From assembly GCA_021737785.1 (NCBI GenBank), contig JAIPDI010000007.1:1-64000 (forward strand): 64,000 nt of DNA. The letters run 5' to 3'. Positions 11,462-24,776 of the stretch are shown piece after piece. A program made the position numbers and the translations under genes. Below the pieces are notes generated by a model. It did not search any database, was not told the DNA's origin, and saw nothing but the letters and a program-made list of their open reading frames with translations. The first letter of the stretch is position 1. Each line of letters opens with the position of its first letter. This DNA is from Deltaproteobacteria bacterium. GTDB taxonomy: Bacteria; Desulfobacterota; DSM-4660; Desulfatiglandales; Desulfatiglandaceae.

Positions 11462-12475
11462 ATGTATACTCTGAAATTTGATGAAAACGTGTGCCGGACC
11501 TGCCCCACGGGCGACTGCCTGGTCAAGTGCCAGTATCTCCATCTCGACAAGGAGACGGCCGTGGCAGAGATGGTGAAGATCGGTCAGGGGGCGGATTCCT
11601 TTGTCCTCAACGACTGTGTCACCTGTTATGCCTGCGAGGAGTACTGCCGGAGGGGGAATCACCCCTTCTACCTCATTACGGAGCGGCGTCAGGAAAAGGG
11701 GATCCTGACCGCGCCGAGGGCCATCACCCGGCAGTGGATCAACATCGGCGAGCCCCAGGGAAAATATCGGCTGGGCGAGGTCAAGGAGCGGGTGCTCTCC
11801 TTTGGCTTCATGCCGGAATTCCTGGGCTGGATCAAGGGACGGCTCTTCGAAGATGTCATGCCCTCCTATATCTTCGGTCAGGAGTTCTTCTGCAACGTGG
11901 TGTACATCCATTTTGCGGATACTGCCGTCATCAAGGAAAGACTTCCCCAGGTGGTGGACAATTTTAGAAAACTGGGGGTCAAGGAGGTGATCTTTCTCCA
12001 CGATGAATGCTACGGCGCCTTCACCCAGCTGGCCCCGGCCTTTGGGATCGATGTACCGTTCCAATCGATTCATTACTATGAATATCTGTATCACCGGTTA
12101 CAGGAATTAAAAGACCTCATCCGGCCGCTCAATATCCGGGTCGCCTACCAGAGGCCCTGTTCATCGCGGCTTTCTTCCGACCAGCACCATTTTTTCGCCG
12201 ATATTATGGACCTGATCGGCGTCGATCTGGTGGCGCGGGAGTATCAGGATGAAAACGCCCTCTGCTGCGGCGGGATATTGAGCATGAACTACGGTTATGA
12301 CCTGGCCCACGATGTCCAAAAAAGGAACATTGATGACATGACGGCCCACGGGGCCCAGTTCTGTGTCTTCAACTGCCCGGCGTGCCAGAGCACGCTGGGA
12401 CCCCTGGTGGCCAAGCAAGGGATAAAACCGATACATATGATCCACCTCTGCCGGAAGGCCATCGGCGAGATGTGA
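11462..12475 (+). CDS. Heterodisulfide reductase-like Fe-S/CCG protein
   Basis: This 337-residue protein has two ferredoxin-type cysteine sets near the N-terminus: C11, C14, C19, C23 and C52, C55, C58, C62. The first has an unusual x4 gap (CRTCPTGDC). A C-terminal half of the HdrB/GlcF type follows, with ALCCGG and NCPACQSTLGP. In such proteins CCG domains hold a non-cubane cluster or accept electrons from a flavin partner. It is the first gene of a plus-strand operon with the FAD oxidase at 12493 and the second CCG protein at 13878. Cytosolic; it probably passes electrons from hydroxy-acid oxidation to the Hdr/quinone pool. Confidence 0.8.
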   Translation: MYTLKFDENVCRTCPTGDCLVKCQYLHLDKETAVAEMVKIGQGADSFVLNDCVTCYACEEYCRRGNHPFYLITERRQEKGILTAPRAITRQWINIGEPQGKYRLGEVKERVLSFGFMPEFLGWIKGRLFEDVMPSYIFGQEFFCNVVYIHFADTAVIKERLPQVVDNFRKLGVKEVIFLHDECYGAFTQLAPAFGIDVPFQSIHYYEYLYHRLQELKDLIRPLNIRVAYQRPCSSRLSSDQHHFFADIMDLIGVDLVAREYQDENALCCGGILSMNYGYDLAHDVQKRNIDDMTAHGAQFCVFNCPACQSTLGPLVAKQGIKPIHMIHLCRKAIGEM

Positions 12476-12492
12476 AAATGGGAGGAGACGCC

Positions 12493-13881
12493 ATGACGGA
12501 TATTACCCAGGCGCTTGCCGGGATCGTGGGAGAGGCCTATGTTTCCAACCACCCTGAGGAGGCCTATTTTTATGCCCGGGACCCCGGGCTGATGCCCCCC
12601 CATGCCCCGGACTATGTGGTGGTGCCCAAGGTCGTGGAAGAGATCCAGGAGATTGTCAGCCTGGCCAACCGCGAAAAGATCCCGGTCGTGCCGATGGGGG
12701 CCGGTCTGGCACTGACCGGTCTGGTCATTCCCCTGAAAGGGGGGATCGTGATCGACATGAAGCGGATGACACGGATTCTGAAGGTCAATGAGACGGGCCG
12801 GCATGCCATTGTCGAAGGAGGCACCTCTCAAGGTCTTCTCAAGTCCTATCTGGAAAAACATCATCCCCGTCTTCGGCACAGCATCCCCGATTCCCCGGCC
12901 ACGGCCACCATCGCAGCCAATGTCATGATCCACGGCCAGGGACGGCTGACCCAGCAGTACGGATTCAATTCCGATATGATTACCGGGCTGGAGGTGGTCC
13001 TGGCATCGGGCCAGGTCTCCCGGATCGGGTCCTGCGCCCTTTCTCCGGACTGGTTTTCAAAGGGGGCGCCCTTGCCCGACCTGACCGGGCTTTTCCTGGG
13101 CTGGTTCGGGGCCACCGGGATCATCACCAAGATCGGCGTGAAACTCTACCCCAAAAAGAAGCTGCGGGACGTGGAGATTTTCCTTACGGATCGGGCAGAC
13201 CTGGTCCCGGATATGATCTATGAACTGACCCATACGGAGATGGTGGAAGACATCAATGTGTTCGCCCAGCCAAAGCCGATGATTTTCAAGGACAACCATC
13301 ACATCACCCTTTTTTTCACCGGGGATACGGACGAGGAGCTGGAATTCAAACGGAAGACGATCTGGCATTCCCTTGACCGGTTTATCCGCAACAAGGACGG
13401 CGGATTTATGGGGGTCCCGCCGGTCATGAAGCCGACCCTCCTGGACATGCCCCAGCGGAGCGTCAGCCGGTTTGCGGATGTGACAAAGGGCGGGGGATTT
13501 GAGTACTCGGGCCCGATCATCATGGTGGACAAATATCCTGCCTGCGCGCAGAAAATCCTGGAGTTAGCGGAAAAATATGATCTGGGGTACTCGGGCATGG
13601 CGCGGATCATCGGGAGGAGTCACGCCATGATGTACGGATTCGCCTTTACCTTCAACCGGGCGGACCCGGACATGATGGAGCGGACCCGGAAGGCCCTCCA
13701 CGAGGTGAGCGTCTTTGCCCTGGAGGCCGGGGGCATATTCTGGAAGGCCACTGTGGACGAACAAAGAATGGCCATGGAAAAGATGGATCCCGTGACCCTC
13801 GGACTCATGAAGATGATCAAGGAACAGATGGATCCCAACGGCATTATGAATCCTGGAAACTGGGAGGTTACCGAGGTATGA
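12493..13881 (+). CDS. FAD-linked oxidase (GlcD/lactate dehydrogenase type), second copy
   Basis: This 462-residue flavoprotein has an N-terminal FAD-binding domain with VVPMGAGLALTGLVIPLKGG and a C-terminus ending DPNGIMNPGNWEV. ATG 12493 is preceded by GGGAGGAG; an upstream in-frame start at 12382 is rejected because it lies inside the Fe-S gene. The protein aligns with the opposite-strand oxidase over nearly its whole length (shared LANREKIPV, KKHHPRL/EKHHPRL, INSDM/FNSDM). It overlaps the second CCG Fe-S gene by 4 bp (ATGA), giving a GlcD-GlcF-like enzyme pair. The substrate is a 2-hydroxy acid by family, not identified further. Confidence 0.87.
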   Translation: MTDITQALAGIVGEAYVSNHPEEAYFYARDPGLMPPHAPDYVVVPKVVEEIQEIVSLANREKIPVVPMGAGLALTGLVIPLKGGIVIDMKRMTRILKVNETGRHAIVEGGTSQGLLKSYLEKHHPRLRHSIPDSPATATIAANVMIHGQGRLTQQYGFNSDMITGLEVVLASGQVSRIGSCALSPDWFSKGAPLPDLTGLFLGWFGATGIITKIGVKLYPKKKLRDVEIFLTDRADLVPDMIYELTHTEMVEDINVFAQPKPMIFKDNHHITLFFTGDTDEELEFKRKTIWHSLDRFIRNKDGGFMGVPPVMKPTLLDMPQRSVSRFADVTKGGGFEYSGPIIMVDKYPACAQKILELAEKYDLGYSGMARIIGRSHAMMYGFAFTFNRADPDMMERTRKALHEVSVFALEAGGIFWKATVDEQRMAMEKMDPVTLGLMKMIKEQMDPNGIMNPGNWEVTEV

Positions 13882-15032
13882 AATACGCAGACATGGTTCA
13901 CAGGTGCTTCAGGTGCGGTTACTGCAAGTTTACCAGCGATTATACCGACTTCAATTGCCCGGCCTACCGCAAGTTCCGATTTGAGACCTATTCCCCCGGG
14001 GGCCGGATGTGGCTCATCAGGGGCTGGCTCAATGGCGATATCAAGAACAGCGAGCGTTTTCAGGAGATCCTCTTTTCCTGCGCCACCTGCGCCAACTGCG
14101 TGGAACACTGCGTATTTACCTTCAGCGACGACCTGGTCAACATCTTCATCGCGGCAAGGGAGGAGCTGGTGGCCGACGGTCTTATTCCGCCCCCTGTGAG
14201 AGACTATCTCAAAAACATCCACGTCAACGGGAACCCTTACAAGGCCCCCGCGGCCGAGCGTGGAAAATGGGCCGAAGGGACCTCGATGGAGGCCTACGCC
14301 GGCCAGGAGTATCTTTTTTATGTGGGGTGCGTGGGGTCCTACGATGAGCGGGCCGTCAAGATCGCCCGGGCCGTGGGCACGCTCCTGGTAAAGGCAGGCC
14401 TTTCCATCGGGATTCTGGGGGAGAAGGAGACCTGCGACGGCAACGAGGTGCGGGCCCTGGGCGAGGCCGGACTCTTTGAACAGCTTGCCGCGCAAAACAT
14501 CCAGGCATTCCGGGACCTGGGCGTCAAAAAGGTCATCACCCTCGATCCCCATGCCTTCAATGCGTTCAAGAATGACTATCCGGGTCTGGGCGGGGAATTC
14601 GAGGTCTACCACTATACCCAGGTCCTGGCCCCGTTGATTCAGGGAGGCAAGGTCCCGCTCAAGGAGTGCTCCCTCAAGGTCACCTACCATGATCCCTGTT
14701 ATTTGGGGCGGCACAACACCGAGTACCAGGCCCCGCGGTCCATCCTCAAGGCCATCCCCGGCCTGGAACTGGCGGAGATGGAGAGAAACGGTGAGAATGC
14801 CTTTTGCTGCGGGGGCGGGGGCGGGAACTTCTTTACAGATATCCTGGGCGGCGGCGAGGAGAGCCCTGCCCGGCTGAGGGTGAGGGAGGCCCTGGATACG
14901 GGCGCCGAAATTATCGCGGTGGCCTGCCCCCAGTGCGCCAAGATGCTGGAGGACGCGGTCAAGTCAGAGGAGATGGACGACCGGTTGAAGGTCATGGACA
15001 TCGCTGAAATCGTGAACGGGTGCGTCATTTGA
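13878..15032 (+). CDS. HdrD/GlcF-like Fe-S protein with CCG domains
   Basis: This 384-residue protein has an N-terminal cluster motif C10-x2-C13-x2-C16-x10-C27-P, a second set in CATCANCVEHC, and two CCG-type regions ending in HDPCYLGR with FCCGGGGGNFF and then CPQCAKML. It overlaps the FAD oxidase by 4 bp, so the two are translated together. By family it takes electrons from the FAD subunit and passes them to a membrane or soluble carrier. The protein shows no transmembrane segments, so it is likely cytosolic. Paired with the Fe-S protein at 11462 it gives the operon two CCG proteins around one oxidase. Confidence 0.85.
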   Translation: MKYADMVHRCFRCGYCKFTSDYTDFNCPAYRKFRFETYSPGGRMWLIRGWLNGDIKNSERFQEILFSCATCANCVEHCVFTFSDDLVNIFIAAREELVADGLIPPPVRDYLKNIHVNGNPYKAPAAERGKWAEGTSMEAYAGQEYLFYVGCVGSYDERAVKIARAVGTLLVKAGLSIGILGEKETCDGNEVRALGEAGLFEQLAAQNIQAFRDLGVKKVITLDPHAFNAFKNDYPGLGGEFEVYHYTQVLAPLIQGGKVPLKECSLKVTYHDPCYLGRHNTEYQAPRSILKAIPGLELAEMERNGENAFCCGGGGGNFFTDILGGGEESPARLRVREALDTGAEIIAVACPQCAKMLEDAVKSEEMDDRLKVMDIAEIVNGCVI

Positions 15033-15033
15033 A

Positions 15034-15266
15034 GTGCTAACGTGAGCTAAAGCGGATACCCGCAACCAATCCCGCCCAGGCGGGACTCACACAAAGACAC
15101 AAAGCACACAAAGGATTTTTTTGTAAAGAAACGGAAACATCCCCTCTTCTCTGTGTTCTTTGTGGCTCCGTGTGAGTCTATAAAATAAGGCGTACTGAGA
15201 TAGAAACAGATTTTCTTGTTTTCTGTTACAGGGTTATTGGAAATAGGGTGCTAAACTGAACTAAAG
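15034..15266 (+). repeat. Direct repeat pair, 19 bases, flanking a stem-loop element
   Basis: A 19-base motif at 15034-15052 (GTGCTAACGTGAGCTAAAG) recurs at 15248-15266 with 16 of 19 bases the same. The pair brackets the inverted-repeat element at 15084-15179. The 351-base gap between the Fe-S gene and the Mo gene holds no credible ORF. Confidence 0.5.
15084..15179. repeat. Imperfect inverted repeat element, copy A
   Basis: The left arm at 15084-15114 (rich in CACAAAG triplet-like units) and the right arm at about 15149-15178 pair as an imperfect 29-base stem around a 35-base centre. Elements of the same look occur at 21732-21803 and 31213-31302. They resemble dispersed non-autonomous palindromes; no transposase is nearby. 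Confidence 0.55.
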
Positions 15267-15383
15267 TTGCCCATTGTTCTCAGACTCCGGGTTTGGAGCG
15301 CACTTCCCTGGATGTTTAAGCCTCGCCCCAAGAGACGGCCGGAAGAGAAAACAGCAACAATTCCGTGAAAGACGGCAGGAAAA

Positions 15384-17480
15384 ATGGATGACCATCTTAA
15401 ATGGATAAAGACCCACTGCGGTCGGATGGACCATGGGGGGTGCGCCCTTCTGGCGGGCGTCAGGGATAATACCATTGTAAAAATAAAGGGCGACCCGGAA
15501 GGTTTCCTGAACCGGGGCTATGTCTGCCCCAAGGGGCTGGCCTCACCCGGCCGGCTCGATCATCCCGATCGACTCAAACACCCGCTCCGCCGGACCGGCG
15601 GCCGGGGAGAAGGTAAATGGGAGCGCATTTCATGGGATGCGGCCATCAAGACCATCAGCGAGAATTTCCAGCGGATCAAGGGAGAATATGGGGCCAGGGG
15701 GGTGGCCTTCTGCCAGGGAATGCCTAAAGGGATCGAGCATTTTGTGCTGATCCGGCTGGCCAATATCTTCGGTTCTCCCAATGTGGTATCGGTCCAGGAC
15801 GTGTGCCATGCCCCCAGGGAAGTGACCGGTCTCCATACGTGCGGGTTCTATCCGGTGGCCGATTTCCACTTAAAGAGCAGCCTCGCCCTGGTGTGGGGGA
15901 GCAATGTGACCAGCACCAATGAGGAGGGCGAAATCTGCAGCCTCCTCCTGGATCAGCTCAGGAACGGCACCCGGATGATCGTGGTGGATCCCCGGCAGAC
16001 CGAACTGGCAAAAAAGGCGGACCTGTGGCTCCAGTTGAGACCGGGCACGGACTCGGCCCTGGCCCTGGGGATGTTGAATGTGATCATCGAAGAGGGGCTG
16101 TTTGATGAGGACTTCGTGGTGGCCTGGACATATGGATTTGAAGATCTGGCCCGGCATGTGAATGGGTATCCACCGGAAAAGGTGTCGGAAGTCACGTGGG
16201 TCCCCTCGGACCTTATCCGGGAGGCCGCCCGGTTGTACGCCCGCTCCCGGCCGGCCGCCATCCAGTGGGGGAATGCCATCGAACAGCATACGAGCGCCTT
16301 TGACACGGCCAGGGCCCTGGTGTGCCTCATGGCTGTGTGCGGGAACCTGGATGTGCCGGGCGGCAATATTCAGGCGAACGAACCCAATATCCTTCCCCTG
16401 GGGAAATTCGTCCGGGCCGACCTCCTCCCCGATAAATGGAAGGAGATGATCCACACTGCCCATCACACCATCCCCAAGCTCATGACCGTGCCCCCGGCGT
16501 TTTTGAGAAAGGCCATACTGGAGGAATTTCCCTATCCGATCAAGGGGGCCTATGTCCAGTGCTCCAACCCGGTCATGGCCTACGCAGACAGCCGTATGAC
16601 CGTGGACGCCATGCATCAGCTCGATTTTCTGGTAGTGGCCGACATATTCATGACGCCGACGGCCTCCCTGGCCGATGTGGTTCTCCCGGTTGCCACCCAG
16701 TTCGAGTTCAACGACATCGGCCACTATGGGCTGGGTCACGGGTATATCCTGGCCCGGCCCAAGGTGGTCGAGCCGCCGGAGGGGTGCTGGTCCGACATCC
16801 GCATCCTCAATGCGCTGGGCCGGGCCATGACCCCGGAGGAATTCTGGGGTGACGACCCCGATGACCTTCTGGAGGCCCTCCTTGAGCCAAGCGGCCTCAG
16901 CTATGGCCGGTTCGTCGAGGAGGGGTATTTGAAGGGGGAAGAGAGATTCAAAAAATATGAATCCCGCGGCTTCAAGACGCCGACCGGCAAGGTGGAACTC
17001 TGCCTGAGCACCACGGAAAAATTCGGGCTCAAGGCACTGCCGGGATTTACGGCCTTGCCCGCGGATGATCCGGACTATCCCCTGGTGTTGACCAGCGCAA
17101 AAGACCCTTTCTACATGCATTCCTCTTATCGATGGGTGAAAAGCCTCAGAAAAAGGAGCCCCGACCCGGTGGTGGAGATTCATCCTGAAACCGCCTCAGA
17201 CCTCAATATCCATGAGGGGGAACAGGTGGCGATCGAGACCCGTCAGGGAGCAATCACCCAGGTGGCGCGCCTGACCGAGGGAGTGCATCCCAATGTGGTG
17301 AATGCCGCCTATGGCTGGTGGTTCCCAGAGGCGGATATCACCTCTGAGGATACCTGGACCCGGTCTAATTTCAACATGCTCACCTCTGCAAAAGAATTGG
17401 GGAAGGAATTCGGCACCCCTAATCTCAAAGGCATCCCGTGCAGGATCCGGCCGGCGAATGAAAGGAAAAAGGAAGGCTGA
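15384..17480 (+). CDS. Molybdopterin-dependent oxidoreductase (BisC/DMSO-reductase family)
   Basis: This is a 698-residue single-subunit-type molybdoenzyme. The N-terminal cluster motif reads C12-x3-D16-x3-C20-x27-C48: spacing matches the family, but Asp stands where the second Cys should be. The probable Mo ligand is C141 in DVCHAPREVTG, coded by TGC and not TGA. Later regions (VDPRQTELAKKADLWLQLRPGTD, GNAIEQHT, QCSNPVMAYAD, PTASLADVVLPVAT) bind the two pterin dinucleotides, and a molydop-binding C-terminal domain (FYMHSSYRW) follows. No Tat signal is visible, so it should be cytosolic. It lies 351 bp after the oxidase/Fe-S operon and 131 bp before a two-component pair. Substrate unknown. 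Confidence 0.85.
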   Translation: MDDHLKWIKTHCGRMDHGGCALLAGVRDNTIVKIKGDPEGFLNRGYVCPKGLASPGRLDHPDRLKHPLRRTGGRGEGKWERISWDAAIKTISENFQRIKGEYGARGVAFCQGMPKGIEHFVLIRLANIFGSPNVVSVQDVCHAPREVTGLHTCGFYPVADFHLKSSLALVWGSNVTSTNEEGEICSLLLDQLRNGTRMIVVDPRQTELAKKADLWLQLRPGTDSALALGMLNVIIEEGLFDEDFVVAWTYGFEDLARHVNGYPPEKVSEVTWVPSDLIREAARLYARSRPAAIQWGNAIEQHTSAFDTARALVCLMAVCGNLDVPGGNIQANEPNILPLGKFVRADLLPDKWKEMIHTAHHTIPKLMTVPPAFLRKAILEEFPYPIKGAYVQCSNPVMAYADSRMTVDAMHQLDFLVVADIFMTPTASLADVVLPVATQFEFNDIGHYGLGHGYILARPKVVEPPEGCWSDIRILNALGRAMTPEEFWGDDPDDLLEALLEPSGLSYGRFVEEGYLKGEERFKKYESRGFKTPTGKVELCLSTTEKFGLKALPGFTALPADDPDYPLVLTSAKDPFYMHSSYRWVKSLRKRSPDPVVEIHPETASDLNIHEGEQVAIETRQGAITQVARLTEGVHPNVVNAAYGWWFPEADITSEDTWTRSNFNMLTSAKELGKEFGTPNLKGIPCRIRPANERKKEG

Positions 17481-17611
17481 TAAGTTGTTGAGCTGATGAG
17501 CTTTGGACCTGAACCCTGAAATCTCAATGCAAGGCGGGTTTGCCTAGGCCTCTGGACCCGTGAACAATCACCCCTATCCGGCATCACGTTTCAATTACGG
17601 AGGACACGGCT

Positions 17612-18757
17612 GTGACCGATACGCCGACTTATGGAGAATTGGAACAGAGGGTCAGGGAACTGGAAAAAGAGGCTGCCCGGCGGAAGGAAGCCGAGGAGGC
17701 GCTCCGTGCGAGCGAGGCACAGAAGCGCGCCATCCTGGACGCCTCTGTCGACCGGATACGGTATGTGGACAAGGATCTGAGGATCATCTGGGGCAATAAG
17801 ACAACGGTCTTGTTTCACGGCATGTCCCCGGAGGACCTGGTGGGCAAGACCTGTTATGAGATGTTTCTCGGGAGAGACACCCCCTGCGAAGGATGCGCCA
17901 CCCTGAAGGCCCGGGAAACGGGCAGGCTTGAACGCACCGTGATGTATCATCCTAAGATAAAGGGCCTCGATAGAGAGACGTACTGGGATACCTATTGCGT
18001 TCCCCTGAAGAATAGTGGGGGCGAGGTCGAAGGGTTCATTCAGATCGGAAGGGACATTACCCGGCAGAAAATGGCTGAAGCACGGATCCACACCCTCAGC
18101 CAGCAACTCTTGAAGGCCCAGGAGAATGAACGGGAGAGGATCTCGCAGTATCTCCACGACCACGTAGGCCAAGAACTCTCTCTCATAAAAATAGGATGTG
18201 AGACCCTGTTGGATGGTTATCCCGACGTCGCCCCTGAGGTTGGCCACCGGTTGGCCAGATTGTCCAAGACCGTCCAGGGGACGATCACTGCGGTGCGTGG
18301 ATTGGCATATGATCTGCGTCCTCCGGGTCTGGATCAGCTCGGACTTGCCCAGGCGGTCTTTCAGCTCTGCGAAGATTTTTCTGAAAATTCCGGCTTGAAG
18401 GTCGATTTTCAGGCCGCTGGAATGGATGATCTAAAGATGGACCCTGATATCGAGATCAACCTGTACCGTCTGTTCCAAGAGGCCCTCAACAATATCGAAA
18501 AACATGCCGATGCCGACCACGTGATGATCCGGATGGTGGCATCCCATCCCAATATTATCCTTTGCATCGAAGACGACGGCAAGGGGTTTGATGTGGAAGG
18601 CAGTCTGCTCAGGGCATCCAGTGAAAAACGGATGGGACTCGGAAGCATGGAGGAGAGGGTCAGCCTTCTTGACGGAAATTTGAGGATCCGGTCACGCCTC
18701 ATGGGGGGCACGAAAATACGTATCGAAATCCCCTTGAAGGAGAAGAGCGGTGCCTGA
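17612..18757 (+). CDS. PAS sensor histidine kinase, NarX/DegS (HisKA_3) type
   Basis: This 381-residue soluble kinase starts with a coiled coil (ELEQRVRELEKEAARRKEAEE), then a PAS domain (residues about 40-155) with paired cysteines in DTPCEGCA, then a HisKA_3 dimerisation segment with the phosphoacceptor H182 in YLHDHVGQEL, and a C-terminal HATPase_c domain (EALNNIEKHA, EDDGKGFD, GLGSMEERV). No membrane segment is present, so it senses an internal cue; the PAS cysteines might bind a metal or respond to redox. GTG 17612 has ACGGAGGA upstream. It overlaps the response regulator at 18750 and lies just behind the molybdoenzyme, which may be its target. Confidence 0.88.
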   Translation: MTDTPTYGELEQRVRELEKEAARRKEAEEALRASEAQKRAILDASVDRIRYVDKDLRIIWGNKTTVLFHGMSPEDLVGKTCYEMFLGRDTPCEGCATLKARETGRLERTVMYHPKIKGLDRETYWDTYCVPLKNSGGEVEGFIQIGRDITRQKMAEARIHTLSQQLLKAQENERERISQYLHDHVGQELSLIKIGCETLLDGYPDVAPEVGHRLARLSKTVQGTITAVRGLAYDLRPPGLDQLGLAQAVFQLCEDFSENSGLKVDFQAAGMDDLKMDPDIEINLYRLFQEALNNIEKHADADHVMIRMVASHPNIILCIEDDGKGFDVEGSLLRASSEKRMGLGSMEERVSLLDGNLRIRSRLMGGTKIRIEIPLKEKSGA

Positions 18758-19427
18758 GAAGACATCGATCCTGATCATTGACGACCATCCCCTTTTCAGG
18801 GAGGGATTGAAGGCCATTATCGGGCGTGACGCACGTTTTGAGGTGAGGGGAGAGGCGGGAACCGCACAGGAGGGACTCCGGATCGCCAAGAAGCTCCGGC
18901 CCGACCTGGTGTTGCTGGATATCTCCCTGCCCGATCAAAACGGCATCCAGCTAACGCGGGACATACGAAGTCTCCTGCCGGATACACGGGTCCTGATCGT
19001 CAGCATGCACGCCAAGATCGATTATATCGCCGAGGCGTTTCAGGCCGGGGCTACAGGATATGTGGTCAAGGAATCCGCGGCCGAAAGACTTCTCAAGGGG
19101 ATCGAGTATGTCTTGAGGGGCGATTATTTCCTGGACAGTTCCGTGTCCCAGCAGGTGGTAAAGAAGCTGATGGCGTCTCCGGCAAGAGATGAAAGGATCT
19201 CGGACGCCGGCTATGGCACGCTGAGCCCCAGGGAGCAGGAGGTGATGCGGTTTCTGGCCGAAGGACTTTCCAGGACGGCCATCGCTGAGAAGCTCTTTAT
19301 CAGCCCCAAGACCGTGGAAAACCACCGGACCAACATCATGAACAAGCTCGGCCTTCACAGCACCATGGATCTGATCCGCTATTCTGCAAAACTGGGGTTG
19401 ATCGACGTGGATCTCTGGAAAGAGTAA
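18750..19427 (+). CDS. NarL/FixJ-family response regulator
   Basis: This is a 225-residue regulator with an N-terminal receiver domain (acidic pair D11-D12, phosphoacceptor D57 in LLDISLPDQNG) and a C-terminal LuxR-type helix-turn-helix (LSPREQEVMRFLAEG to VENHRTNIMNKL). The gene begins at GTG 18750, 8 bp inside the kinase gene, so the two are coupled. It is the partner of the PAS kinase and probably controls nearby redox genes, although no binding site could be defined. Confidence 0.9.
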   Translation: MPEKTSILIIDDHPLFREGLKAIIGRDARFEVRGEAGTAQEGLRIAKKLRPDLVLLDISLPDQNGIQLTRDIRSLLPDTRVLIVSMHAKIDYIAEAFQAGATGYVVKESAAERLLKGIEYVLRGDYFLDSSVSQQVVKKLMASPARDERISDAGYGTLSPREQEVMRFLAEGLSRTAIAEKLFISPKTVENHRTNIMNKLGLHSTMDLIRYSAKLGLIDVDLWKE

Positions 19428-19519
19428 CCCGCCCCGCGTCAGGGTTTTCCCCGATCGCACCCGGGATATCCCCCCTTTTTTTTAGGTCTTTTACCCATTC
19501 AATTGAACCTCTCCCACTA

Positions 19520-19548
19520 TTGACAACCTGGCTGAAATTACTCATATT
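19520..19548 (+). promoter_or_regulatory. Candidate promoter of the small signalling cluster
   Basis: TTGACA (19520-19525), a 17-base spacer and CATATT (19543-19548) precede the Cys-rich ORF at 19638. A T-rich run at about 19473-19482 lies just before it after the response regulator gene, without a clear stem. Confidence 0.45.
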
Positions 19549-19637
19549 TCTTTTAAAGGATCCGGGATCCGTGCGGATATTTGAAAGCGCTCTTTCATCC
19601 TGAGGATATGAGCCCTGCAATTGCGGAGGAAATCCCG

Positions 19638-19877
19638 ATGAGTACCCATGTGACCATAAACGATCCAAGCAGGCCCGTCGGAGCTGAATCTATGACCAAG
19701 CCATCCATTCACGTCAAGAATAAAAAGACAAGAAATTATCTGGATATCATCACATTGATCCGGAGCATTCAGCGATCCGAAGGGAATCCCGATTGTTTTT
19801 TGAAGAGAAACGGTCATTGCGACCAGCTGAATTGCGCCTGGCGACCATATTGCTTAGGGAAAGAACGAAAAGGGTGA
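19638..19877 (+). CDS. Small cysteine-rich protein, unknown function
   Basis: A 79-residue protein with four cysteines near the C-terminus: C53-x7-C61-x4-C66-x5-C72, within PDCFLKRNGH and CDQLNCAWRPYCL. Such spacing suggests a small metal site. ATG 19638 is supported by GGAGG seven bases upstream; a longer frame from 19581 has no such site. It precedes a frameshifted receiver gene and STAS-like and GAF genes on the same strand. The helical stretch RNYLDIITLIRSIQRSEGN may be an interaction helix. I do not recognise a characterised family. Confidence 0.6.
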   Translation: MSTHVTINDPSRPVGAESMTKPSIHVKNKKTRNYLDIITLIRSIQRSEGNPDCFLKRNGHCDQLNCAWRPYCLGKERKG

Positions 19878-19970
19878 AGGGGACGGCGGCGCTGGGGAGG
19901 CAAAGGAGCCGCTCAGGATTAAAAATTCCCATCCACAAAATCCCTTTAACGCATTGGAGGGGAGGGGCAT

Positions 19971-20361
19971 ATGAACAGGATTCTGGTTGTCAATGACGAT
20001 GACACGGCCATCCGGCTCCTTTACACCGATGAACTCACCGAGGAAGGCTATGAGGTCATCACGAGAGAGGGCGATATCGGTCTGATGGAACTGATTGAGA
20101 AGAAGAGACCCGACCTGGTGGTACTGGATATGCCGCCCGGCGAGGGTGAGGATATGCGCCTTTGCCGGAATATAAAGGAGCGTCTACGATGAGTTGCCGG
20201 TTATTCTGTCCACGGTTTATGCGGCCGCCGGGCCGGATGTGAAGTCGATGACTGCAGAGCCCTACGTATGCAGGAGTTCAGATTTCAACGAACTGAAAAT
20301 AGCCATCAGACGGGCGGTTGAAGACCGTGAAGCGCTGTGTGTCGAAGGCCATGTTCAATGA
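19971..20361 (+). pseudogene. Single-domain response regulator split by a frameshift
   Basis: The ORF from ATG 19971 encodes a receiver start (ILVVNDDDTAIRLLY, then VVLDMPPGEGEDMRLCRNI) but stops at 20190-20192 after 73 residues. From about 20188 the +1 frame continues the domain: DELPVILSTVYAAAGPDVKS, ending in a C-terminal helix (LKIAIRRAVEDRE) with a stop at 20359-20361. Together they make about 129 residues, the normal length of a stand-alone receiver. One base gained near 20187, a sequencing error, or a programmed +1 shift are all possible. The conserved Lys of the beta-5 strand is replaced by Arg (VCRSSD). The start is preceded by GGAGGGG. Confidence 0.7.
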
Positions 20362-20461
20362 TGACGTTCACTGACCGTTGATCCTCTGCAAGACAGAAGA
20401 CATGAGATTTCAGAGATAACGGATGAGAATACGGGATGCAGTGAAAAAAGGAGTTTCTGTG

Positions 20462-20752
20462 ATGGCAGCCAATTTTCGGATCTTCGTTCATCGGAACAGT
20501 GATAATCTCCATTTGAAACTGATGGGGGATTTTGATGGGTCCTCGGCATGGGAAGTCCTCAATATGTTGAAAAAGAGCGCAAGGGGCGTCTACAGGGTCA
20601 TCATTCATACGGGGTGTTTGAAACATATCGATCCCTTTGGGAGGGATACGTTTCAGGAAAACCTGCGCCACTTGAAAACCGCCACGGTTCCTATTCTGTT
20701 CACAGGAGAGAACGCAAGCCAGATCGCACCTGAGAAGAGTTCATGCATGTAA
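20462..20752 (+). CDS. STAS-like domain protein
   Basis: This 96-residue protein has the alternating strand/helix pattern of STAS / anti-sigma-antagonist domains: a first strand (LHLKLMGDFDGSSAWEVLNML), a middle (VYRVIIHTGCLKHIDPFG) and a last strand (TATVPILFTGENA). The usual phosphorylatable Ser in the DxSG motif is not evident; the equivalent loop reads CLKHID. ATG 20462 is chosen for the AAGGAG box upstream. It sits between the broken receiver and the GAF protein. A partner-switching role is possible but the missing Ser argues for a structural or sensing role. Confidence 0.5.
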   Translation: MAANFRIFVHRNSDNLHLKLMGDFDGSSAWEVLNMLKKSARGVYRVIIHTGCLKHIDPFGRDTFQENLRHLKTATVPILFTGENASQIAPEKSSCM

Positions 20753-20850
20753 CCGATGGGAAACTCCCTGCTGCCGATGAAAGTCTGTCCAGCGGCTATG
20801 GCGGGGTTGTGTCAAGAAACCCTTTGGAACCTCATCGAAAGGAGGGCGCC

Positions 20851-21480
20851 ATGAAAAACGAAATCATGAACTACGAAACCCTTTTAAAGGTGACGCATGG
20901 CTGTGTCCTGTCCAGGGACCCTGAAGAATCCGCTTTACTGATTGTCGAGGCGGTAAAGAGCGCACTGGATGTTAAAGGCTGTGCCCTGTTTCTGTTCAAC
21001 CGGAAGACCCACGAATTGGAGGTGGCGGCATCCATGGGGCTGAGCAACGAGTATCTGAACAAGGGCCCGCTCAGCGCGATGCACTCCATTGCAGGTTCTC
21101 TGAAAGATGGTCCTGTTGCCATCTCGGACGTAACAGAGGATCCACGAATCCAATACCCGGAAGCGGCAAAAAAAGAGGGTATCGCCTCCATTCTCTCGGT
21201 GCCCATCGTCGTCCGGGATAAACCTATCGGCGTGCTGAGGGTCTACTCGGCCACGCGCTGGGAGGCCACGCTGGAAGATGTGAATTTTGTTCAGGCCGTG
21301 GCCCAGATCGCAGGCATGGCCCTGGAGATGTCCCGCCTGCATAAAGGGATGAAGGACAGCATCGAGATATTGAAGCATATGCGGGATCCAAAGACCTTTA
21401 AATCGAAAGGGTGGACCCCTTACGAGGGCATTCCCAAGAGTGTGGGGAAGGTCGGTCCCATTTCCCAACAGATCCAATGA
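20851..21480 (+). CDS. GAF-domain protein
   Basis: This is a 209-residue soluble protein that is almost entirely one GAF domain (residues about 20-155: KGCALFLFNRKTHELEVAASMGLS to SVPIVVRDKPIGVLRVYSA and LEDVNFVQAVAQIAGMALE). It has no output domain, so it must act on a partner. The C-terminal tail (SIEILKHMRDPKTFKSKGWTP) is poorly conserved in type. ATG 20851 has AAAGGAGGG upstream. It follows the STAS-like gene by 98 bp, with a strong hairpin behind it at 21537-21566. Confidence 0.75.
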   Translation: MKNEIMNYETLLKVTHGCVLSRDPEESALLIVEAVKSALDVKGCALFLFNRKTHELEVAASMGLSNEYLNKGPLSAMHSIAGSLKDGPVAISDVTEDPRIQYPEAAKKEGIASILSVPIVVRDKPIGVLRVYSATRWEATLEDVNFVQAVAQIAGMALEMSRLHKGMKDSIEILKHMRDPKTFKSKGWTPYEGIPKSVGKVGPISQQIQ

Positions 21481-21536
21481 GATCCTTTGGCCGTAGGTTT
21501 GTGGCAGCAGCAGAAACCGACGGTATGCGCTGGAAC

Positions 21537-21566
21537 AAGGCGCCGCATTGAAAAATGCGGCGCCTT
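21537..21566 (+). terminator. Hairpin after GAF gene
   Basis: A perfect 12-bp stem (21537-21548 with 21555-21566) closes on a six-base loop. It is GC-rich (AAGGCGCCGCAT arm) but no T-run follows, so factor-independent termination is uncertain; mRNA 3' protection is another reading. Confidence 0.5.
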
Positions 21567-21731
21567 GCCAAGGTGATGCCTCATTTCACAATCTCCATAA
21601 GCTTCATATCCATCCACGCCTTCCATGATTTCCAATTTGCTTCACTTCGGTATTGCCGCTAACCGCAATCTGATGTAAGTTACAGACGAATCCTGAATAC
21701 ATCGCGGTAATGAGTATGTCGATTCCTGTTT

Positions 21732-21803
21732 TCACCGCAAAGGCGCCGAGCACGCAAAGGAAAAATCGGTTTCCTCTGCGTCCTCTTGCCTCCTGGCGGT
21801 GAG
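21732..21803. repeat. Imperfect inverted repeat element, copy B
   Basis: The left arm (21732-21763, beginning TCACCGCAAAGG) pairs imperfectly with the right arm (21770-21803, ending GGCGGTGAGA). It belongs to the same class as the elements at 15084 and 31213. It fills part of the 357-base gap before the kinase-like gene. Confidence 0.5.
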
Positions 21804-21837
21804 ACATCATTCCTTGTTGCCGCCCCGATTGAAGGAT

Positions 21838-23436
21838 ATGTGGATGAGCGGAGACGAGCAATACGGCTCAACGGGCTGGGGCCACCGCATTAAAGAGGAA
21901 AATCGTGGATTGAGGGAAAAACTCACCAGCCTTCGAAAGGAATTGGGAAGCCTGCAGAGAGAGCTTCGGAACACCTGGAAATTGTTAGACCGTGTTCCGG
22001 GCAGTCTCATCCTCGTTCAGCAGGAGAAGGTCCTCTTTGCCAATGAAACTGCATGCAAAGAGACAGGGTACACCCGGAACGAGCTGTTGTCCCTGGAGGT
22101 CTCTGATCTTCTGGATTTTGATTCGGTCTCCTCTACACTTTCCTTTTATCAGAGACAGACCCGGGCTCAGCCCGCTTCACATCAGCATGAGACCTGTCTG
22201 AAAACCAAAGGGGGTCAATCTCTGCCCGCCGAACTCCGGGCAGACAAGATATTGTACCGGGGGAAAACGGCCATTCTATTCCATATCATCTCCCTTGACC
22301 AAAGGAAGGCCCAGGAAAAACGGCACACAGCGTCCGCAAATGCGGAGATCCTTCTAAGGATGGCCTCCGGGTTCAGGCAGGAACTGGACCGGTACCGTAG
22401 GCTGCTCCAGGAGGATACCCCCGGAAATCCAGGCCCCGGCGTATATGGGAACAATGCCCCAACATCCTGCCAGGGGATCGCGGCGATAAGAGAAAAGGAG
22501 TCACGCCTCTCACTGCGCCTTCAATGTCTGGCCAAAACCGAGTATGACCCGTCGGAACTGACCTTCGTCGGTCTGAAGGAACTCATCGAGACAGCCGTAG
22601 ACATCGCCTGTCCGACGACCAATACGGGATCCCGGCCAGATGCACTCGTCACGATGAATACCTTCCTGAGAGCTCCCTCCAGTGTCTATGGCTGCGGCCG
22701 GGAGTTGCAGGAGGCCTTTGCCAACCTTATCCTGAACGCCGTAGAGGCCCTCCCGGACGGGGGGGATGTGTATCTGACGACTGAGGCGCATTCCGGTTTT
22801 GCCCATATTTATATTCAGGATAATGGGGTGGGGATGCCCGAAGCAATCATCGAAAAGATTTTCGATCCCTTTTTCACCACCAAAGATGGGACTTGGAGGG
22901 GGCTCGGTCTGAGCCTCAGCCGCGCCATCATTGATCGCCACCAGGGAGAGATCAGCGTCGTCAGCCAGGAGCGGAGAGGCAGCACCTTTGTTGTTAAACT
23001 TCCCTTGGCCCGGGATGTTGCTTCACTTGTGAAGCGGGTGACCCTCAGAAAAGGGTTAAGGGATGCGCACATTCTCATCATCGGAGATGAGGGGGTCCTG
23101 ACAGATATCCTTTACACCCTTTTTAAAGACAAATGTGATGGTGTCACGGTGGTCTCTTCGGATAGGGATGGTCTCAGACTCCTGCAAGACACGCGGATCG
23201 ACCTGATCATAGCCGACCAGGGCGCCTTCGCTAACGACACGAGCAGGATCGCTCGCCGGATAAAAGAGCTGCGGCCGGACCTCCCCGTTGTCCTCATCAA
23301 TGCCGACAAGATGCCCGGCTCATGGGACATGGAAGGAAAAACGGGCGCAGATCTGACCATGGCCAGGCCCATAGACCTGGACAGATTTCTCTCACAGGTA
23401 GCGCTTCTGATGGAAAAAGGGGGAGCCCCCGAATGA
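21838..23436 (+). CDS. PAS-HATPase-receiver hybrid, kinase-like, lacking the H-box histidine
   Basis: This 532-residue protein has an N-terminal coiled coil, a PAS domain (LLDRVPGSLILVQQEKVLFA onward), a helical segment where HisKA should be, a complete HATPase_c domain (LILNAVEAL, DNGVGMPE, FDPFFTTK, GLGLSLS) and a C-terminal receiver. In the helical segment (LRMASGFRQELDRYRRLLQ) no HE/HD pair is present. The receiver keeps a likely Asp (LIIADQG) but its beta-5 Lys is replaced (MARPID). It may act as an ATP-binding scaffold or need another phosphodonor. ATG 21838 is chosen because AAGGAT lies upstream and the longer frame enters the repeat element. It overlaps rarA by 4 bp. Confidence 0.75.
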   Translation: MWMSGDEQYGSTGWGHRIKEENRGLREKLTSLRKELGSLQRELRNTWKLLDRVPGSLILVQQEKVLFANETACKETGYTRNELLSLEVSDLLDFDSVSSTLSFYQRQTRAQPASHQHETCLKTKGGQSLPAELRADKILYRGKTAILFHIISLDQRKAQEKRHTASANAEILLRMASGFRQELDRYRRLLQEDTPGNPGPGVYGNNAPTSCQGIAAIREKESRLSLRLQCLAKTEYDPSELTFVGLKELIETAVDIACPTTNTGSRPDALVTMNTFLRAPSSVYGCGRELQEAFANLILNAVEALPDGGDVYLTTEAHSGFAHIYIQDNGVGMPEAIIEKIFDPFFTTKDGTWRGLGLSLSRAIIDRHQGEISVVSQERRGSTFVVKLPLARDVASLVKRVTLRKGLRDAHILIIGDEGVLTDILYTLFKDKCDGVTVVSSDRDGLRLLQDTRIDLIIADQGAFANDTSRIARRIKELRPDLPVVLINADKMPGSWDMEGKTGADLTMARPIDLDRFLSQVALLMEKGGAPE

Positions 23437-24776
23437 GCAACCCACTCGATCGCCCGGTCAGGCCGTTGGCTGAAAGAATGCGGCCCAAGAGTCTGGATGA
23501 GATAGTGGGGCAGGAACACCTCCTGGGGCCAGGGGCTTTTTTAAGAAGGGCCCTGCAAAGCGGTCGCATATTTTCAGTCATCTTCTGGGGTCCTCCGGGT
23601 TCCGGTAAAACAACGCTTGCCAGGCTTATGGGAGAGGCCGCTCAATGTGCTTCCCGTTCATTTTCTGCGGTGACCTCCGGGTTGAAGGAGTTGAGGGGGG
23701 TTATTGCCGAGGCTGAAGTGGAAAGGAGTAAGTCCAACAGGCCCACCATCCTTTTTGTAGATGAGATTCACCGGTTCAACAAGGCCCAGCAGGATGCCTT
23801 TCTCCCCCATGTGGAAAATGGGCTCATCATCCTCATCGGCGCCACTACCCAAAACCCATCCTTTGAGGTGATTCCGCCGCTCCTCTCAAGGGCCAGGGTG
23901 ATGGTCCTTCACCCGCTCGACAGAGACGATCTGGAGACCCTCCTGCGCCGGGCTGTTTCAGACCGGACCAGAGGTCTGGGAACTCTGGATGTCCGGGTCG
24001 CTCCCGAGGCCATGGACTACCTCGTTGAACTGGCCCAGGGGGATGCCCGCGTGGCCCTCAATAATCTGGAATCAGCCGCCTACGCTGTTATGGATACACG
24101 GCCTGACGGTCCCGTGCACCTGGCCTTGAAAGATCTTGAAAAAGCCTTGGATCGGAAGGCGCTCCCCTATGACAGGGACGGCGAGCACCATTACGATACT
24201 ATTTCCGCCTTTCACAAGAGTCTTCGGGGGAGTGATGCCCAGGCCTCGGTCTACTGGCTCTACCGGATGCTCATGGCCGGAGAAGATCCGCTCTTCATCT
24301 GCCGGCGGATGATCCGATTTGCCTCTGAAGATGTGGGATTGGCCGATCCCCGCGCCCTGCCCATGGCCCTGTCCGCCTTCGAGGCTTGGCAGAAGATAGG
24401 TCCTCCCGAGGCGGAACTGGCCTTGGCCGAGGCTGCGGTCTATCTGGCCTCGGCGCCCAAGAGCAACGCCTTGTATCTGACCGAAAAGGCCGTCAAAGAG
24501 GAGATCCGGCAATCCGGGTCACTTCCGGTTCCCCTTCACATCCGGAACGCCCCGACCCGCCTCATGAAGAAGCTGGGCTACAGCCGGGGCTACCGCTATC
24601 CTCACAATTATCCGGGGGCATGGATCAGTCAGGACTACCTCCCTGAAAACCTGAGGAACCGGGTCTTCTACCGGCCAACTCAAAGGGGGTTTGAGCAGGA
24701 AATCAGAAGGCGGATGGACAGCTTTCGCAGGGCGGCGCATGCAGAGACCAGGAGCGCCGCAAAGACGAAGGAGTGA
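23433..24776 (+). CDS. rarA: Replication-associated recombination protein A (RarA/MgsA)
   Basis: RarA is an AAA+ ATPase related to clamp loaders that acts at stalled forks and ssDNA ends. The 447-residue protein has [23 protein letters not shown], Walker [10 protein letters not shown] (residues 53-61), Walker [11 protein letters not shown], sensor-1 [11 protein letters not shown] and the C-terminal tetramerisation region ([20 protein letters not shown]). ATG 23433 overlaps the stop of the kinase-like gene (ATGA); an upstream in-frame start at 23322 lies inside that gene and is rejected. A hairpin at 24813-24855 follows. Confidence 0.93.

Follow-up and report, generated by a model that had tools for sequence, protein, structure and literature searches.

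A putative pseudo-histidine kinase gene beside rarA, and the two-component operon that adjoins it, in a Desulfatiglandaceae genome

The window analysed here is a 64,000-nucleotide stretch of a Deltaproteobacteria bacterium (family Desulfatiglandaceae; contig JAIPDI010000007.1 of assembly GCA_021737785.1), and its row of small signalling genes at 19638-23436 raises the question of whether they form a single system. A first-pass annotation had described five small open reading frames (ORFs) in order on one strand, for a Cys-rich, a receiver, a STAS-like, a GAF and a kinase-like protein, and had proposed that they may form one system or a decaying two-component locus. All five were found, in that order, on the forward strand. 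The joint explanation that fits the results best, and which we hold to be somewhat probable, is that two unrelated conserved units abut here: unit A (17612-21480), a two-component operon, and unit B (21838-24776), in which the kinase-like gene, here called HKr, precedes rarA and would encode a regulator that is dead for phosphotransfer.

The single five-gene system was rejected, as unit A is absent at the corresponding site of G001, a genome of the same genus. In a blastn comparison the window matched G001 in two blocks, 15369-17507 and 21838-23225, which are separated there by 115 bp, and the window block 17508-21837 is absent. The first block covers a molybdopterin oxidoreductase gene, and in G001 HKr comes straight after it. 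HK3, LuxR, CYS, STAS and GAF (listed below) were not found by blastn on that G001 contig, and CYS was not found in the G001 genome. Since unit A is missing there while HKr stays, HKr is a separate unit. The G001 contig carrying rarA (L329) starts with the end of HKr, and the HKr-rarA order thus holds there, split across two contigs. Whether unit A was gained in the window genome or lost in G001 cannot be told from this site. HKr orthologues elsewhere adjoin dnaE and rarA, so the kinase-like protein belongs with the downstream rarA and not with the four proteins with which it had been grouped. The limits drawn for the cluster were also too narrow, as they omitted two upstream genes, HK3 and the LuxR regulator, of the same conserved operon. 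The features are as follows.

17612-18757, forward strand: HK3 (unit A), a complete sensor kinase with PAS_4, HisKA_3 and HATPase_c domains (Pfam HisKA_3 E 5e-13, HATPase_c E 6e-11)
18750-19427, forward strand: a complete LuxR/NarL-type response regulator (unit A; Response_reg E 1e-28, GerE E 9e-22)
19692-19877, forward strand, first ATG possibly at 19638: CYS (unit A), a small four-Cys protein (C-F-x7-C-x4-C-x-W-R-x2-C)
19971-20192, forward strand: REC, the first part of a broken receiver gene (unit A), with a stop after 73 codons
20185-20361, forward strand: the remainder of REC in another frame (unit A; by tblastn and alignments), with the conserved Lys replaced by Arg
20462-20752, forward strand: a STAS-fold protein (unit A; by predicted model and Foldseek), in which PF stands where the phosphorylatable Ser would be
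20851-21480, forward strand: a single-GAF protein of 209 amino acids (unit A; Pfam GAF PF01590 E 9e-15)
21481-21837, no strand: the junction between units A and B (by sequence; the match to G001 resumes at 21838)
21838-23436, forward strand: HKr (unit B), with a coiled coil, a PAS domain, a DHp-like hairpin lacking the phospho-His, a GHKL domain and a pseudo-receiver (by Pfam domains, a 32-row alignment, a predicted model and gene neighbourhoods)
23433-24776, forward strand: rarA (MgsA), an AAA+ ATPase (unit B; MgsA_C 229.5 bits, AAA_assoc_2, AAA)

The likely start of HKr is 21838 rather than 21799, and that of the GAF gene is 20851, behind AAAGGAGG, rather than 20743. The start of rarA overlaps the stop of HKr (ATGA). 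In the junction, a G-C-rich hairpin without a T run was seen by eye at about 21540-21564 and was not listed by the terminator scan, and the promoter scan was uninformative (3 found, 2.7 expected). Segment 21722-21812 had a single other, partial match in the genome (74%), indicating that no high-copy repeat lies at the junction. Upstream of unit A, genes for a FAD-linked oxidase, a CCG/4Fe-4S protein and the molybdopterin oxidoreductase lie in a row (12382-17480) and are 86-92% identical in G001.

HKr is tied to the dnaE-rarA replication locus. Best matches to HKr (E <= 1e-40, the single best per genome) were found in 32 of 61 relatives, and the HKr profile reached E <= 4.4e-90 in 42 of 67 genomes of the class. 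As orthologues we counted 44 of 51 loci examined (E <= 1e-40 to the window protein, or E <= 4.4e-90 to profile A1 within the class); the seven left out (L294, L295 and L296 in the class; L263, L277, L278 and L279, with 1.5-kb flanks only, outside it) showed no rarA and no dnaE in the sequence available, and one further match above the cut-off (G047:C53, a 1178-amino-acid frame) stands outside the 44. Directly downstream of HKr and on the same strand, rarA was found in 35 of the 44 loci, and a divergent dnaE lay upstream in 39. This linkage spans two families in which HKr is only 23-61% identical. Nine loci are without rarA; two of these (L198, L214) end at a contig edge and seven truly differ. 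Among the five without dnaE, three (L215, L228, L284) start at a contig edge and the others, the window and L198, represent this genus, in which HKr-rarA has been separated from dnaE, its divergent neighbour in other genomes; dnaE of the window genome (81% identical) lies on another contig (C52). Outside the class, no HKr-like gene was present upstream in any of 22 rarA loci, the best-scoring of 186 genomes with rarA (one, L326, with only 127 bases upstream). The HKr profile matched 28 genomes of the phylum sample, the best matches being large hybrid kinases or similar proteins.

HKr might nevertheless lie between dnaE and rarA by chance and serve an unrelated pathway, and several observations lean that way, counting against a functional tie to RarA. 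Seven loci carry dnaE-HKr without rarA (L209, L220, L223, L224, L286, L287, L288), so that rarA is not an obligate neighbour, and in four of these seven genomes, of genus g12, the only rarA found was a different, long form elsewhere. The dnaE link is lost in the genus of the window, and two genomes (G025, G008) have dnaE adjoining rarA with no HKr-like gene. Upstream of rarA in G063, of the four long g12 genes (five more loci in all) and in G040, such a gene was likewise not found; for G016 and G048 the upstream sequence was too short to judge. The neighbours may also be conserved because they share a housekeeping promoter, and not for a functional reason. Set against this is the recurrence of both links in most of the 44 loci, across two families and at such protein identities, and a chance position was considered rather improbable. 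As a separate observation, the long g12 rarA genes (L342, L343, L344, L345) have frames of 745-782 amino acids, are 49-50% identical and lie away from dnaE-HKr.

Reduced forms were also observed in front of rarA. In G009 and G030, of one genus, the gene encodes a GHKL domain and receiver of 317 amino acids, PAS and DHp being gone; in G041 a receiver with a degraded GHKL domain is present, and in six more distant genomes (G053, G058, G060, G062, G046, G039) a receiver alone. The short ORFs of these six genomes had been considered as GHKL-only, which was rejected, as they are receiver-only. A divergent dnaE lies in the 1.5-kb flank for G053, G058, G060 and G030, and by inspection all the reduced-form receivers lack part of the active set. 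The receiver-only genes scored 78-104 bits against the HKr receiver, while scores of 80, 68 and 66 bits were reached by other receivers in the loci retrieved, and 70-81 bits by large hybrid kinases that the same profile picked up, so that sequence is only suggestive of their kinship with HKr. For five f4 genomes it is position that carries this kinship, with a divergent dnaE in only two of the five (L336, L337). The pseudo-receiver is the part common to all the forms observed, and is thus the candidate for the output contact.

The active-site residues of HKr indicate how such a protein might work. Gln181 stands at the phospho-His position of the window protein, which has no acceptor His there, and this His was lost in 29 of 32 orthologues. 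Ten different residues occupy this position in the 32 rows (Arg 13, Gln 5, His 3, Ser 3, Asn 2, Leu 2, and Pro, Lys, Ala and Asp 1 each), and two proteins that are 91% identical (L204 and L205) show a Gln/His difference there. The HATPase_c match of the window protein is strong (E 2.7e-24) and its Pfam receiver match weak, and the N-box Asn and the box glycines were present in 32/32 and the G1 Asp in 30/32 (Glu in two). In the C-terminal receiver, the complete set of acidic pair, Asp, Thr/Ser and Lys was found in none of 31 rows, with Thr/Ser in five and Lys in 11 (Arg in 17). As judged from these residues, HKr is predicted to be unable to carry phosphate on the usual His, and its receiver should not be switchable in the usual way. 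It probably binds ATP in the GHKL domain, because the boxes there are intact. The ratio of nonsynonymous to synonymous substitution rates (dN/dS) was 0.17-0.30 in seven HKr pairs, which indicates that the protein is maintained by purifying selection. The predicted model (predicted local distance difference test, pLDDT, 80; predicted template modelling score, pTM, 0.48) shows a coiled coil (9-51), a PAS domain, two helices (153-193, 207-232) where DHp would lie, and GHKL and receiver folds. Among its Foldseek matches, NifL-NifA (9qq6) ranked 37th and DivL (4q20) 44th.

Some of the same data weigh against a protein that is dead for phosphotransfer. The His is retained in three of the 32 orthologues, and in L215 a His occupies the position that follows. 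Alignment across the DHp region is poor, the receiver phospho-Asp is kept in 26/32, and the top Foldseek matches are ordinary histidine kinases. HKr could thus be an active histidine kinase that uses another acceptor residue, or the DHp of another kinase in a heterodimer, and both the GHKL boxes, intact in all 32, and the retained receiver Asp would suit this. However, no residue consistently replaces the His, and the DHp-like segment has the highest dN/dS of four segments (split by fraction of aligned codons, not at exact domain ends) in four of the seven pairs. In addition, two genomes drop PAS and DHp altogether and six keep the receiver only. An active kinase is accordingly unlikely.

The phosphotransfer-dead HKr that we favour would be a pseudo-histidine kinase working like NifL or DivL. 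Its PAS domain would read a signal and its GHKL domain a nucleotide, and the result would be passed on by direct protein contact, as from NifL to NifA or from DivL to CckA. The likeliest partner would be RarA, the AAA+ fork-processing ATPase encoded by the next gene; it is gene linkage that points to RarA as the target, and HKr may control it.

In the account of PMC9866876 available to us, the GHKL domain of NifL binds ADP/ATP, and complex formation inhibits the AAA+ protein NifA. The PAS sensor, the GHKL domain with N, G1, F and G2 boxes and the co-encoded AAA+ protein described there are all as in HKr. NifL differs in having two PAS domains and a conserved His in its H domain, and no C-terminal pseudo-receiver is described in the available part of that account (PMC9866876), unlike in HKr. 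Its partner NifA is a sigma-54 activator, whereas the neighbour of HKr is MgsA_C/RarA, a fork-processing ATPase. According to the accessible text of PMC4211667, DivL of Caulobacter, a pseudo-histidine kinase, works through binding, neither kinase nor phosphatase activity having been found. It shares with HKr a kinase fold with the acceptor His replaced, the relation between the two being a fold match (4q20). DivL has Tyr at the site, binds an ATP analogue weakly and acts on CckA through DivK~P, whereas HKr has intact boxes, varied site residues and a pseudo-receiver of its own, and its gene lies in a different locus. The bacterial pseudo-receivers covered in the accessible part of PMC12632262 have, like the C-terminus of HKr, a receiver fold without key active-site residues; that of HKr is joined to a pseudo-kinase or stands alone before rarA, and that part mentions no such locus. 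RarA is presented in the available portion of PMC10804225 as an AAA+ protein that modulates RecA and replication restart and is located at forks. No kinase-like gene between dnaE and rarA was described in the open-access PubMed Central titles and abstract openings searched.

Unit A is a two-component operon of the ordinary His-Asp kind, formed by HK3 and LuxR together with accessory genes. The earlier idea of a system not based on His-Asp phosphotransfer suits both the STAS protein and HKr, whereas an intact His-Asp pair stands at the head of unit A. The order LuxR-CYS-REC-STAS-GAF was found in all four of the closest named loci (L057-L060, out of the 78 loci that the GAF protein matched; the contig of L057 is also that of G002, a same-genus genome). 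HK3 precedes this order in L058, L059 and L060, and its end lies at the contig edge in L057. The LuxR regulator is 80-85% identical in the four relatives. One additional gene of about 95 amino acids lies between STAS and GAF in L058-L060; in G005 and G026 no GAF gene accompanies LuxR-CYS-REC-STAS, and the order in G051 is REC-STAS-GAF. Two small families of about 95 and 115 amino acids (L058:5643-5930 and L058:3822-4169) recur in or beside unit A of relatives, with no Pfam match at its cut-off and no NCBIfam match; in the genome of the window, L152, a locus rich in receiver genes, contains a relative of the former.

The reading of all five genes as remnants of one decaying two-component locus was considered very improbable, although one gene is indeed broken. 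Between the window and L057, dN was 0.07 for GAF, 0.09 for LuxR, 0.17 for CYS, 0.18 for STAS and 0.44 for the receiver, with HK3 within 0.07-0.18 (40 codons only); dN was used for unit A rather than the ratio, as dS was saturated in many pairs. Decay would explain the extra base and the high dN of the receiver against this same-genus relative (among L058-L060 it is at most 0.04-0.05), as well as the missing phospho sites of HKr and STAS. Yet GAF, LuxR, CYS and STAS are under purifying selection, and the site losses are old and stable, since the STAS site is lost in 24/25 and the HKr His in 29/32. Decay thus holds for the receiver gene alone, by its frameshift and relaxed selection. The combination of unconserved gene order and relaxed selection, which the first-pass annotation had named as grounds for refutation, was not found as a whole: the first four genes keep their order, and selection is relaxed in the receiver only. 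Its statement that most of the proteins lack a usual catalytic or phospho residue stands for the STAS protein and HKr; the unit A receiver is canonical outside the genus.

A naturally short receiver was rejected. The 73-amino-acid ORF matched PF00072 at E 1.9e-6, under the gathering score, and the rest of the gene runs on in another frame as far as 20361. The nucleotide alignment showed one extra base relative to three relatives (a +1 frameshift), and three extra bases near the acidic pocket. With the relatives in a single open frame, the continuation shows that the receiver was broken by one extra base. L058-L060 keep the full active set (DD, D, T, K), L057 lacks T and K, and the window lacks K (replaced by R). 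The receiver is among the slowest genes between L058-L060 (dN 0.018-0.038), in contrast to its rate within the genus, so constraint was relaxed in this genus only and the gene was pseudogenised in this genome after that. The extra base may be an assembly error, yet the same-genus L057 has also lost Thr and Lys.

The STAS protein matched Pfam STAS at E 0.13 only. Its model (pLDDT 83) matched the SpoIIAA, TM1442, RsbV and RsbS folds in Foldseek, with E 2.9e-5 for 1tid. At the two site positions, which we matched to the phospho-Ser motif through motif and helix start, 24 of 25 relatives have no Ser/Thr and one has one; the absence in the window protein is thus family-wide and not decay. It shares the STAS fold with SpoIIAA, RsbV and RsbS and differs from them in this lost site, in a gene that follows a receiver gene, and in that no anti-sigma kinase was identified nearby. 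The family is present in 31 of 61 relatives, with a receiver gene at most 500 bp upstream on the same strand in 15 of 29 STAS loci (16/30 counting the duplicate contig, L057 = L164). Thr50 (window numbering) is invariant in 25/25 relatives. A second copy in the window's own genome (L152, G000:C9) lies amid several receiver genes and has an internal TGA.

CYS was found in 20 of 61 relatives and its motif in 49 of 148 genomes in a sample of the phylum; its four Cys are invariant in 12/12 aligned rows, and it may bind metal. Several relatives have a Rho_N-like segment ahead of the motif, and one of two tested passes the Pfam cut-off. Such Rho_N-like proteins of the same phylum, with a C-terminal four-Cys motif, share LIRxIQxxEGN...CF...C...C.WR..C with CYS, which lacks the Rho_N-like N-terminus. 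The GAF protein is mostly a stand-alone gene, as only four of its 78 related loci have CYS and STAS alongside. It (L057-L134) is unusually conserved across Desulfobacterota, often at 60-70% identity over about 180-200 amino acids, and no common neighbours of the stand-alone gene were seen beyond the closest relatives.

An NreABC-like nitrate/oxygen sensor (GAF receptor, HisKA_3 kinase and LuxR regulator) was rejected for lack of support and is hardly credible: the same three domain types co-occur in unit A, and its regulator scores 144 bits for NarL and its kinase 73-74 bits for NarQ/NarX, all under curated cut-offs, but no NreA structure was among the nine GAF structural matches (PDB) listed at E <= 0.01, the GAF gene is without adjoining CYS and STAS in 74 of 78 loci, and we know of no counterpart in Nre systems of the four extra small genes.

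Returning to the phosphotransfer-dead HKr, its significance lies in the family. According to the part of the review PMC12632262 available, the His is missing in 0.9% of HisKA domains (722 of 76,471), whereas here a whole orthologous family has lost it. Pseudo-histidine kinases and pseudo-receivers are common and few have a known partner; HKr brings an obvious candidate, RarA. A family without the His, together with this candidate, makes two questions testable, namely how pseudo-kinases and pseudo-receivers pass on signals in the absence of phosphate, and whether a sensor regulates RarA. As a tentative proposal, which we rate below an even chance, the class would carry in its dnaE-rarA locus a dedicated sensor free of phosphotransfer that sets RarA or replisome activity by a cell signal and the nucleotide state. 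It would consist of a PAS domain, an ATP-binding pseudo-kinase and a pseudo-receiver, the pseudo-receiver only in some lineages, and would represent a NifL-type switch that acts at replication forks instead of on transcription.

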